NCBI GenBank assembly: GCA_016208685.1
Contig: JACQXM010000027.1
Coordinates: forward strand, 1-64,000
Reading direction: 5' to 3'
DNA length: 64,000 bases
DNA from: Planctomycetota bacterium
Lineage (GTDB): Bacteria; Planctomycetota; Phycisphaerae; UBA1845
The position numbers and the translations under genes are program-made. Under the pieces are notes generated by a model. That model was given only the letters and a program-made list of their open reading frames with translations, was not told where the DNA came from and did no database searches. Positions 14,201 through 17,790 of this stretch are shown in pieces (position 1 is the stretch's first letter; each line of letters starts with the position of its first letter).

Positions 14201-16382
14201 CGAGTGCGACATCGCCACCGGAAACAGCAACGACTGCGGGGCCCTCGGCAATCACATTCCCGACGAATGCGAACCGGATTGCAACATCAACGGCAGTGCG
14301 GATAGCTGCGATCTGGTCATGGGCGTGAGCGCCGACACGGACGCGAACGGCGTGCCGGATGAGTGTCAGAACGTGCGTCACGTTCCCGCCGACTATGCCA
14401 CGGTCCAGGAGGCCATCGACGCCGCCAGCCCCGGGGATACCGTGCTGCTGGCGGATGGGGTGTACAGTGGGGAGGGCAACGTCCTGCTGGACTTCGGCGG
14501 AAAAGTGCTCACGCTTCGCGGCGCGGGCGGTGCCGAGCAGTGCACCATCGATCTGGGCGAATTCCGCCACGGCGTCCTGTTTCGTTCCGGCGAGAATGCC
14601 GCGTCGTCGGTGCAGGGCATTACGTTCCTCAACGGGGCCGTCGGGTTGCAGTTCGAGGACGGGAGCACGCCGCGCATCGAGGATTGCCGCTTCGTGGGCC
14701 AGCGCTCTGCGGGCCTGCTCGCCTATTCCAGCCCGGTGCAGGTGCGGCGCTGCACCATACGCGACGTCCGCCGCGGCCGCAGCGTCTTCTGCTGGACGGG
14801 AAGCGACATGGTGCTCTCGAGCTGCCTGATCGCGGAGAACCGCGGCGGCGGCGTGTACGTGTATGAAAGCAGTCCGGTCTTCGAGAACTGCCTTTTTGCA
14901 CGCAACGGGGCTCGAGTGGGCGCCGCCGTTTACGTGTTCTCCGGGAACCCGACTTTCCGCAACTGCACGATTGCGGACCAGAGTGCCGTTTCGGGCGCCG
15001 TCTTCGCAACGCGCAGCGAGCTTATTCTGGAGAACTCGATCGCCTGGGGCTCCCTGCTGGAATCCGGCCCGCAGATCATCCTGGTGCGCGGCTCGTTCGC
15101 GCGGCTGGACTTCAGCGTGGTGGAAGGCGGCGAGGCCGGCATCTACCACGACGGCAACAGCGTTCTACAATGGGGCTACGGCAACCACGGCGTGGACCCG
15201 CGGTTTGAAACGGGCGCGGATCTGGGCGCTCCGGACCTCTTCCTGAAAGGAGCCTTTCGCCTCCGACCTGACTCGCCCTGCATCAACACCGGCGACCCTG
15301 GATTCCACGGGCGCATCGAGGAAACCGACGTTCTGGGCGGCGCGCGAGTCGTGTTCGAAAGCATAGACATTGGTGCGGACGAGGCGGAGGAGTTCGCGGA
15401 CTGCAACGGCAACGTCAACCCGGACGGCCAGGACGTGCGCGCCGGCTACAGCGCCGATTGCAACGGCACGCTGCGGCCCGATGAGTGCGAAGTCGGCGAA
15501 GGTTCGAGCCGTGACTGCAACCGCAACGCCGTCCCGGATGAGTGCGAGGCCTTGGGCGGGGCGGGCGACTGCAATGGGAACTCCGTACCTGACGCCTGTG
15601 AGTCGGACCGCGATGGTGACGGAGTGATCGACGAATGTGACGCTTGCCCCGATGACCGGTTCAAGGCCCAGCCCGGACGCTGCGGCTGTGGCCATTCGGA
15701 GCGCGACAGCGACGCCGACAGGGTCCCCGACTGCGTCGATGCCTGCCCGGGAGCGGACGATGCCCGCGACTGCGACGCGGATGGCCTCCCCGACGCATGC
15801 GAAATCGCCGGCGGCGGGGCCGCAGACGCCAACGGCAACTTGCTTCCTGATGATTGCGAGGCACCGCGGGTTGCCGCGCGCGGCGGCCGGTACATCGAGG
15901 TGCGGCCGTTCGACTCCGGCGTGCCCCTCGCGCTCCTGCTTACGGGCGACCAGGCGGACCCGGCGGTAGCGTGCGTGGAGCGCTTCGTGCAGCTCGACGG
16001 GCAACTTGGCGCGCAGCCGGCGTTCGGCACGGCGAGCGAGTGGGGAATTCCTGTGGTCTCTGGACCGGAAATCCGCCCAGGAACGACCTACGTAGCGAGC
16101 GCCGGCTTCGCACGGCAAGGCGGTATGGCGTTCACCGCCGGCGCGGAGGTCACCACCGCGCGCTGGGGCGACGTCGACGGCGACGCTCGGGTGACGATGA
16201 CCGACGTGTTCCTCGTGGTGCAGGCCTTCGGCGGTGCATCATATCGGGCGCCGTCGTTTGCTACGGACCTCGTACCGTGTACCCCCAACGCCATGGTCTC
16301 CTTCGCCGACGTCCAAGCGGCGCTGCGTGCCTTCCAAGGAATCCCGTTCGACGAGTCCGACTGCCCGGGGGTCTGCCCGTAA
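11253..16382 (+). CDS. giant exported subtilisin-like (S8) protease with Ca-repeats, beta-helix and dockerin-like end
   Basis: A 1709-residue secreted protein; GTG start with GAGGGG upstream and a signal peptide ending near AAHA (34). Order: I9-like prodomain (about 70-165); S8 catalytic domain with Asp265 (VIDTGID), His320 (HGSHVAG), the oxyanion Asn in AAGNS, and Ser481 in GTSMATGYA; DCNGN repeats (about 535-640); a Cys-rich CDDGDDC segment; a cohesin-like beta domain (about 700-875); more repeats (to about 1045); a parallel beta-helix (about 1048-1360) with EDC/ENC turns; a third repeat block (about 1383-1540); and a dockerin-like C-terminus (from about 1638, GDVDGDARVTMTDV). The Pro of the usual GTSMAxP is Gly here. 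A Gly-rich linker (about 165-212) looks foreign. Probably a surface or secreted protease; target unknown. Confidence 0.92.
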   Translation: MGSRCLGRGPSLPVRGPVALAWLVAGLSVFPAAHADPPAAGDSALTLAQSVADLQSGGPTTFVSAPAGPARIIVRFKPEAPPEVRTEAHAAAQATVVRQLGRAAAGRTAGRRSSDPGRHRFPVTFVPDFELVQVDGPPQPALAAYAARGEVLYAEPDYVWRLPEDADGNGVSQCGTHGSGVGPVREGAGGGGAQSGSQTRQEAGARGSASGGVVPDDPDFALQWGLRNTGQTINGDVGVPGADLRAGGAWALWTGDPAFRVAVIDTGIDYGHPDLASNLWTNDQEIPGNGLDDDGNGWIDDVYGYDFANDDGDPRDDHGHGSHVAGIIGAAGNNGVGGAGLNWRCRLVALKIFNSNGDAFTSDAIEAIAYAVSMGISVSNNSWGGDNYSQALRDAIAAAQFAGHLFVTAAGNSLGRNIDDFPVYPASYDLPNMLTVAATANDDQLSFVSNIGARSVDVGAPGHHIYSTVTGGGYDYLTGTSMATGYATAVVALLRGRRPDLGWSQVKDRLLATTRPLASLQGRTLTGGILDAAAAVGDCNGNALADELDIAQGASHDCDGSGIPDECEVDCNGNGLADSCDIAAGGGSADCNGNFVPDECDVGAGAADCNHNGVPDDCDLTSGVSSDVNGSGVPDECELCDSAADCDDGNFCTDESCVGSLCHWQNRAGPCDDGDDCTGADRCVQGACQGDKLPTLECAPLFSMRVAAVGGRPLPGGPAAQVTAARGDRITLELYLERWDPVSVQAYNVVVDHHSYVSGATGALTPVVEPDPDAGAFIDKQRDDFIFGARPNITLLWNTEQEFYQYGGLVLFPEDCAMDDGRRAYLGTLLVDASQTASGTFSFCLNPDTENASFLLGCPLPFQLRQFNFGCATISIPLGDCNHGPDCNGNGIWDVCDINLGYSPDCNRNDRPDECDFADGASVDCNGNSMPDECDIASGSSRDCDANAVPDECEPDCNGNAVVDACDLLFHTSQDCNGNTVPDECDIATGNSNDCGALGNHIPDECEPDCNINGSADSCDLVMGVSADTDANGVPDECQNVRHVPADYATVQEAIDAASPGDTVLLADGVYSGEGNVLLDFGGKVLTLRGAGGAEQCTIDLGEFRHGVLFRSGENAASSVQGITFLNGAVGLQFEDGSTPRIEDCRFVGQRSAGLLAYSSPVQVRRCTIRDVRRGRSVFCWTGSDMVLSSCLIAENRGGGVYVYESSPVFENCLFARNGARVGAAVYVFSGNPTFRNCTIADQSAVSGAVFATRSELILENSIAWGSLLESGPQIILVRGSFARLDFSVVEGGEAGIYHDGNSVLQWGYGNHGVDPRFETGADLGAPDLFLKGAFRLRPDSPCINTGDPGFHGRIEETDVLGGARVVFESIDIGADEAEEFADCNGNVNPDGQDVRAGYSADCNGTLRPDECEVGEGSSRDCNRNAVPDECEALGGAGDCNGNSVPDACESDRDGDGVIDECDACPDDRFKAQPGRCGCGHSERDSDADRVPDCVDACPGADDARDCDADGLPDACEIAGGGAADANGNLLPDDCEAPRVAARGGRYIEVRPFDSGVPLALLLTGDQADPAVACVERFVQLDGQLGAQPAFGTASEWGIPVVSGPEIRPGTTYVASAGFARQGGMAFTAGAEVTTARWGDVDGDARVTMTDVFLVVQAFGGASYRAPSFATDLVPCTPNAMVSFADVQAALRAFQGIPFDESDCPGVCP

Positions 16383-16445
16383 CTCCGCAGCGCGCCGCCA
16401 CCGCAGGGGGTGCGTGACCGGTTAGCTCGTGCGAAATTCCTATCT

Positions 16446-16557
16446 TAGCTCGTGCGAGATTCCCATCTCGCACGCCGTGTTCGCAGGATGCCGATCCTGC
16501 GATCTTGCGGGAACGGATTCACGCAGGCGCGGGTGCGAGAACGGATTCTCGCACCAG
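16446..16557. repeat. 112-bp hairpin-cluster repeat, copy 1
   Basis: First full copy of a direct repeat that is itself four hairpins in a row: GTGCGAGAT/ATCTCGCAC, GCAGGAT/ATCCTGC, GCGGGAA/TTCACGC (one mismatch) and GTGCGAGAA/TTCTCGCAC, each with a small loop. A broken partial copy precedes it at 16423-16445, and an extra copy of the last hairpin follows at 16562-16583. It lies in the 559-base gap after the protease gene. I see no gene in 16383-16941. Confidence 0.85.
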
Positions 16558-16683
16558 CTGGAGAGAACGGATTCTCGCACCAGCCGGCCAGACCCCCAGC
16601 CAGGTCACAACGCGAAGCACACTAGCCAGGTCGCGTGTTCGCGGCGATACTACGGAGCTGTGTGCGCCTCGGGGCTGCCCGAA

Positions 16684-16795
16684 TAGCTCGTGCGAGATTC
16701 CTATCTCGCACACCGTGTTCGCGGGATTCCGGTCCTGCGACGGTGCGGGAACGGATTCCCGCAGGCGCGGGTGCGAGAACGGATTCTCGCACCAG
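16684..16795. repeat. 112-bp hairpin-cluster repeat, copy 2
   Basis: Second full copy, the same length as copy 1 and mostly identical. Differences fall largely in loops or keep pairing: the third hairpin is perfect here (GCGGGAA/TTCCCGC), and the second becomes GCGGGA/TCCTGC with a G-T pair where copy 1 has A-T. It ends about 146 bases before the GTG start of the exported-protein gene at 16942, so it may lie in that gene's leader. Confidence 0.85.
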
Positions 16796-16941
16796 CCGTT
16801 CGGGGCACGGCGAGAGATTGCTCGACGACCCACGGCGGGCGAGGCAATGGCACACCTGCCGTCCAGGCGGACGACCGATGGCAGCGGCTAGGGAGACGCC
16901 GTTGCGGCGCGGCAGGGTCTTTCCGAGGAGGTGCGAACAAC

Positions 16942-17790
16942 GTGAAGTACATTCGAATGGCAGCCTGTTTTGCCCTGGCCGCGGCGGTTGCGCCGACGGT
17001 CGCACAGGGACAGGTCGTTCCGTGGACGTTCTACACCGACGCGGCCTCGGGTGCGGAGTGCGCCGTGGTCAACGCCCGCGACAACGAGTTCGTCGTGCTT
17101 GCGGATACCGATGAACTGGCGTTCATCAACGCCGCCGCGAACACGCTCGACGTCCTTCCGGACACCTTCGTCGACGTCGACGGCGCCGTGTTCCTGGCGG
17201 CGGAGCCTGTCGGCTTCGTATCGTTCTTCGACGATGGCGACGGGGCGCCGACGGTCTGGTGGACCTCGGACCAGGGCCTGGTTTGGGCCGTCGCCTTCGA
17301 CGGTGTCACCACGGTGCTCACGGAGACCGATCGCGTTCCCGCGGACTTTGTCGGCGTGCCGTGTGATCCGTGTTCCCTCCTCGATGACCCGGGGCTTTGC
17401 GGCGCCTGCTTGGACGACGCGGAGTGTGACGACGGCGACGACTGCACGGACGACGTTTGCGATCCCGCCGTGGGCTGCGTGTTCGCGGAGGTCATCTGCG
17501 ACGACGCCAATCCCTGCACCGACGACGGCTGTGTGGGCGGCGCCTGCGTTTATGTGGACAACAACGACCCCTGCGACGACGGCGACGAGTGCACCGACTT
17601 CGACCAGTGCGAAGCCGGCGCCTGCGTCGCCGTGCTCAACCCCGACTGCGACGTCATCGTCGTCGAACCGCCGATCGTGGTGCCGCGAGTTTCCCTCAGC
17701 TTCTGCGCCGGCGGGGCCTCGCTTGCGATGTGGCTAACCCTCGCCGGCCTGGTTTCCCTCGGCGCGGCTCGGCGCCGTGGAGGGTCGTGA
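16942..17790 (+). CDS. exported Asp/Cys-rich protein with C-terminal membrane tail (paralog 1 of 2)
   Basis: 282 residues; GTG start at 16942 with GAGGAGG about 10 bases upstream. The longer frame to 16690 runs through the hairpin repeat and is rejected. A signal peptide ends near VAQGQ (26). A beta-rich domain (about 28-145) contains SGAECAVVN, EPVGFVSF and TVWWTSDQG. A Cys-rich block follows with repeats such as CDDGDDCTDDVCD (about 150-240). The C-terminus is Cys-Ala-Gly, a hydrophobic helix and RRRGG. The next gene encodes a clear paralog of the beta-rich part and starts 3 bases after this stop, so the two are surely co-transcribed. I recognise no family; probably surface-attached. Confidence 0.85.
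   Translation: MKYIRMAACFALAAAVAPTVAQGQVVPWTFYTDAASGAECAVVNARDNEFVVLADTDELAFINAAANTLDVLPDTFVDVDGAVFLAAEPVGFVSFFDDGDGAPTVWWTSDQGLVWAVAFDGVTTVLTETDRVPADFVGVPCDPCSLLDDPGLCGACLDDAECDDGDDCTDDVCDPAVGCVFAEVICDDANPCTDDGCVGGACVYVDNNDPCDDGDECTDFDQCEAGACVAVLNPDCDVIVVEPPIVVPRVSLSFCAGGASLAMWLTLAGLVSLGAARRRGGS

Follow-up and report, generated by a model that had tools for sequence, protein, structure and literature searches.

The closest described systems are the REPINs or BIMEs and their RAYT (TnpA-REP) genes, known together as REPtrons in Pseudomonas, E. coli and Stenotrophomonas (PMC3116915, PMC8266576). They share with the repeat considered here the dispersed intergenic inverted hairpin doublets with a 5' tetranucleotide foot, the ability of the doublets to fold either as one long hairpin or as separate hairpins, and a RAYT gene with members of its own repeat family on its flanks. 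The RAYTs have been described as mostly single-copy and domesticated, with no evidence of mobility (PMC8266576). A second comparison is offered by the TIRtrons (TIRYTs), in which, as here, a RAYT-like gene lies inside inverted terminal repeats that are themselves palindromic; these repeats are long, some are double palindromes, and some form repeat families (PMC3733652). In the main TIRYT group, subclass 2.1, a C-terminal HTH domain has been reported (PMC6006769). Class 3 HUH proteins, from Planctomycetes and Acidobacteria (PMC6006769), likewise include planctomycete RAYT-like genes with atypical flanking hairpins that reach a high copy number, and the IS200/IS605 family (IS608, ISDra2) has in common with the present elements a Y1/HUH transposase, hairpins near the ends and a foot adjoining the hairpin. 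In the open-access literature, no description was found of TIRtrons or TIRYTs in Phycisphaerae, nor of the present repeat family or of any RAYTs in this class.

The 113-bp units found in the window, the whole analysed stretch of 64,000 nucleotides from a Planctomycetota bacterium of the class Phycisphaerae, are very probably non-autonomous elements of the REPIN/MITE type belonging to a Phycisphaerae RAYT. They would derive from an autonomous element of about 675 bp, in which a RAYT gene (HUH/Y1 nuclease, about 177 aa) lies between inverted two-hairpin ends, each made of an outer hairpin with the foot GCTG or GCTC followed by an inner hairpin. The foot of REPINs and BIMEs is GTAG, which the E. 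coli RAYT needs, a point that weighs against the attribution, and even the wider GTAG-REP super-family foot (GTAG or GTGG/GGAG-like) is not that of the Phycisphaerae hairpins; moreover, unlike in REPINs, each arm consists here of two tandem hairpins, outer and inner, with one common loop motif.

The sequence-only reading of the window had described a 112-bp direct repeat in two full copies, each a string of four consecutive hairpins, together with a broken copy and a stray hairpin. The repeat is real, with two ungapped copies of 113 nt that are 92% identical (9 differences) and each contain the row of four short hairpins; the broken copy and the stray hairpin correspond to a half copy and a half hairpin. 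Each unit is, in addition, a single long inverted repeat of the order outer-inner / inner'-outer', an architecture absent from that reading. The copies sit between a subtilase/beta-helix gene, which ends at 16382, and a frame for an exported-type protein on the + strand starting near 16942, and they begin 64 bp past the subtilase gene. The features are as follows.

16423-16445, + strand: truncated left outer hairpin from an older copy, directly abutting copy 1 (repeat family D3)
16446-16558, + strand: copy 1, complete miniature element, a two-hairpin arm and an inverted two-hairpin arm with the feet GCTC / CAGC outside
16448-16473, - strand: copy 1 outer hairpin, type b, loop GATTCCCATC, 5' foot GCTC at 16448-16451
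16481-16502, - strand: copy 1 inner hairpin, type b
16506-16525, + strand: copy 1 inner hairpin, type a, inverted, one stem mismatch
16533-16558, + strand: copy 1 outer hairpin, type a, inverted, foot CAGC (read as GCTG on the opposite strand), matching the family motif exactly
16563-16584, + strand: truncated right outer hairpin from an older copy (repeat family D2 and motif search)
16684-16796, + strand: copy 2, complete miniature element, 92% identical to copy 1
16686-16711, - strand: copy 2 outer hairpin, type b, foot GCTC
16719-16740, - strand: copy 2 inner hairpin, type b
16744-16763, + strand: copy 2 inner hairpin, type a, stem perfect
16771-16796, + strand: copy 2 outer hairpin, type a, foot CAGC, matching the family motif exactly

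Since the truncated hairpins at 16423-16445 and 16563-16584 bracket copy 1, the latter lies inside or beside an older copy. A complete miniature element between truncated outer hairpins, as in the window, was also observed at G000:C39:39204-39336, a layout that hints at insertion inside or next to earlier copies.

As RNA, each copy has its predicted energy minimum in one long hairpin, at -70.5 kcal/mol for copy 1 and -80.9 kcal/mol for copy 2 (z-scores -8.2 and -10.4, respectively; no equally good fold among 200 shuffles). With DNA parameters, copy 1 is most stable as four hairpins (-42.0), and for copy 2 the long form reaches -44.4 vs -39.9 for the four hairpins, so that both folds are nearly equal as DNA. 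The earlier observation that changes between the copies tend to keep pairing was borne out: the second stem shows two changes from A-T to G-T, and copy 2 has a perfect third stem. Across the family, the outer hairpin closes its loop with an A-T pair in 265 copies and with T-A in 22, and double changes occupy 10 cells in the outer hairpin (shuffle maximum 7) and 33 cells in the inner hairpin taken at a fixed offset (shuffle maximum 26), counts that serve as supporting evidence only because related copies are not independent.

The repeat counts rest on pattern searches. In its own genome, BLAST with the window region returned 12 places, and the outer hairpin GTGCGAGAANGGATTCTCGCACCAGC, with the 5' foot GCTG or GCTC and the loop TCCN, gave 19 matches at up to 3 mismatches and none with the reversed control; together with the fold z-scores and the shuffles, this argues against a chance repeat. 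The outer hairpin is carried by 19 of 60 relatives, with as many as 239 matches on both strands of one genome. Class-wide, at 2 mismatches, 30 of 298 genomes were positive, all of them within the 65 sampled from the order of the window, and none of the 233 genomes of the class outside this order carried the hairpin. Among the exact matches listed from a public genome collection, nearly all belonged to metagenome-assembled genomes of Phycisphaerae and other Planctomycetota. The hairpins lie mostly outside genes, 36% being inside called genes vs 79% of sequence called coding by a crude gene calling. The many dispersed copies with compensating changes, proposed by the sequence-only reading as the mark of a REP-like or RNA element, have been found in this way in the own genome and in the relatives.

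In 305 copies, conservation ends right after the foot, reading outward CCAGC or CGAGC; in 146 copies outside the exact search seeds, the foot was GCTG (tail CCAGC) in 73% and GCTC (CGAGC) in 22%. Of the inverted pairs within 300 bp, 42 carry their feet on the outside and 4 on the inside, an over-representation of the REPIN arrangement, and the commonest spacing of about 85 is that of the window itself.

Relatives have pairs of inverted outer hairpins, spaced about 650 bp, between which lies an open frame for a REP-associated tyrosine transposase (RAYT), and in ten genomes the hairpins form inverted ends around an intact gene of about 177 aa. Three of the proteins score 107.5-114.9 bits with the NF047646 equivalog model (cut-off 80), and a weak Y1_Tnp (PF01797) is the sole Pfam domain in the 177 aa. 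The residues H58, H60, Y137 and N141, which represent the HUH motif, the catalytic Tyr and the neighbouring Asn, are invariant in 11 RAYT proteins, and the best PDB fold match of a structural model of moderate confidence (pLDDT 72) is 4er8, the E. coli RAYT-REP complex (E 7.8e-6). The C-terminal HTH or DnaA-like extension of TIRYT subclass 2.1 is absent from this protein (177 aa, Tyr at 137). Class 3 HUH proteins differ, by their description, in the foot CnGA and a class-specific profile, in contrast to GCTG/GCTC and the general RAYT equivalog model here. Unlike in the IS200/IS605 family, the ends are inverted to each other and doubled, and the IS200 model remains below its cut-off (16.9 bits vs 55). 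Sites of the attC type were considered for the imperfect palindrome and dropped, the gene between the ends being a RAYT.

Cognate RAYTs, defined by E <= 1e-30, were found in 10 of the 298 genomes, all ten repeat-positive; such co-occurrence would arise by chance with a probability of 2e-11 over the class and 1.7e-4 within the order, the genomes being phylogenetically non-independent. About two thirds of the repeat-positive genomes are without a cognate RAYT, which calls for either loss of the gene or action in trans. The bare presence of PF01797 was rejected as a marker, because nearly every genome has several Y1_Tnp genes, with the repeat or without, and only the cognate clade matters. Every cognate locus looked at has an outer hairpin nearby, most of them on both sides and most with inner hairpins, in the usual order outer-inner-gene-inner-outer, from which one or more hairpins deviate in the G030 locus (L230) and in L267, L269 and L270. 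A tree of 47 RAYTs places all 12 flanked members on one branch (support 100/99) in which host families are mixed, and this mixing suggests that flanked RAYTs may have passed between hosts. Four more RAYT-like genes of a more distant kind, three of which score the same, were observed within 5 kb at G038:C1:2614693-2619377, pointing to a second, tandemly multiplied RAYT system.

The window copies are tied to these elements by their arms. Over 51-52 bp, the right arm of copy 1 matches the intact RAYT element of genome G038 at both ends and that of G019 at the right end, in each case with 88% identity, and the right arm of copy 2 matches ends of RAYT elements with 90% identity. Forms with an internal deletion occur in the own genome, where an element of 192 bp on contig C14 and another on C18 hold 33 codons of the RAYT C-terminus (67% identical), lying between or next to hairpins of the window type, and where an element of 112 bp on C13 aligns over 85 bp with the end of the G038 element at 85% identity. 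Such gene-less 113-bp versions and decay intermediates, by which the repeat is tied to the gene, distinguish the family from TIRtrons. Two elements of the own genome (L005 at about 1620-1760, on C13, and L006 at about 1570-1640, on C16) have beside or inside them another repeated hairpin of the CCACTGCTGACACAGCAGTGG type, which may be a second repeat family.

In one relative, G295, three intact RAYT elements of about 675-680 bp are 92-95% identical and end abruptly, with unrelated flanks beginning at the foot; they are located on contigs C505 (L271, L272) and C480 (L266), two of them about 3 kb apart. Here, unlike in REPtrons, the RAYT and its arms are a discrete element in several near-identical copies. 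The inverted-repeat architecture and the internally deleted forms are also what would be expected of a MITE derived from a conventional DD(E/D) insertion sequence whose terminal inverted repeats are long, but the intact elements encode an HUH/Y1 RAYT, their ends are hairpins with a foot, the three G295 copies are without obvious target duplication at their boundaries, and no DDE transposase was seen between such ends in the loci read, which makes this origin hardly conceivable.

The very stable fold and the pairing-preserving changes, as well as the intergenic position 64 bp after the subtilase gene with a + strand frame following, could also be explained by a structured regulatory RNA, or an mRNA-stabilising or terminator element, placed before the exported-protein gene and kept by selection at this locus; for REPs elsewhere, transcription and action as RNA have been reported as plausible (PMC3733652). 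This is very unlikely to be the origin of the repeat, as the 64-kb window has no Rfam match at the gathering threshold, the copies occur on both strands, their distribution over tandem, convergent and divergent gaps is that of the background (by crude gene calls), the palindrome is symmetric on both strands, and the same sequences are the ends of transposase elements. An RNA role acquired after insertion is possible. Of the two natures proposed by the sequence-only reading, the REP-like palindromic element has therefore held, as REPIN-type doublets of a RAYT system, and the structured RNA upstream of an exported-protein operon has found no support.

The descent of the units as REPIN/MITE-type elements is, on the level of sequence comparison, well supported by the shared ends, the intact and decayed RAYTs between them, the sharp boundaries, the single flanked clade, the co-occurrence of gene and repeat, and a genome in which the RAYT element is dispersed in several copies.

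The hairpins are of two types, a with the loop GAATCCNTTC and b with the loop GATTCCNATC, and both hairpins of one arm tend to be of the same type (Fisher 5e-9, related copies being non-independent). The classified miniature elements of 107-119 nt comprise 19 b/a and 3 a/a, in counts from loci seeded with type a hairpins, which b/b elements would escape; RAYT-bearing elements are a/a wherever classified. Such mixed-type doublets resemble the heterotypic y/z doublets of E. coli. When b is changed to a in silico, the DNA folds, near parity before (median -0.3), come to favour the long hairpin (-3.5 kcal/mol), which motivates, without demonstrating, the notion that short hairpins stay accessible when the arms are mixed. 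A bolder reading, for which we see some chance while considering it on balance doubtful, is that of a non-domesticated Phycisphaerae RAYT lineage, in which the RAYT and the two-hairpin inverted ends would make up an active IS-like element that follows a non-GTAG recognition code of its own, and the miniatures would spread preferentially as b/a, since the A-T swap near the loops of the two hairpins of one arm would weaken the 113-nt hairpin and leave the short ones free for the enzyme.

The opposite view, that the hairpins were spread by a RAYT long ago, are now immobile, and have been multiplying mainly through tandem duplication and recombination, draws on the relatives, where 80 direct neighbours stand against 42 REPIN-oriented ones, on fixed-period tandem arrays such as L191 and L194, and on the own genome, which holds RAYT fragments only; it is opposed by the dispersed matches, which reach 239 per genome and lie on both strands, and by the several well-preserved dispersed RAYT elements of G295, and we regard it as rather unlikely. 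The dispersed matches and the G295 elements speak for transposition, in the relatives' recent past at any rate. Regular head-to-tail arrays of outer hairpins were observed at L191 1141-1556, L194 4393-5017, L152 1707-2093 and L122 2471-3138, with fixed periods of about 49, 156 and 47 bp, and the one at L122 includes stretches of the RAYT C-terminus.

The own genome (93% complete) yielded no intact cognate RAYT, only the C-terminus fragments and three more distant RAYTs of 26-29% identity; the cognate gene may be missing from the assembly, or another RAYT may serve. Because only cognate fragments were found, the family looks relict in this genome, and the window copies are now probably only passive intergenic hairpins.

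By analogy with the enzymes of E. coli and IS608 (PMC8266576, PMC6006769), the movement of the REPIN/MITE-type elements would begin with hairpins folding in single-stranded DNA, such as the lagging-strand template; the RAYT would bind foot and hairpin, its tyrosine would cut beside the foot at each end, and the hairpinned strand, excised or copied, would then be joined into another site.

The earlier statement that the repeat matches no known element is thus to be divided: in kind it belongs with the RAYT/REPIN systems, yet its foot GCTG or GCTC in place of GTAG and its two-hairpin ends set it apart, which is why no match had been recognised. New here are the two-hairpin ends, the non-GTAG foot, the mixed-type ends and the multicopy RAYT. 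The path from the RAYT element through internally deleted intermediates (192 and 112 bp) to gene-less 113-bp palindromes would provide a concrete transposon-to-REPIN series, and the different foot with the common loop TCCN would constitute a new recognition code. For the Phycisphaerae, the RAYT system puts a name on a large and previously unlabelled repeat family.
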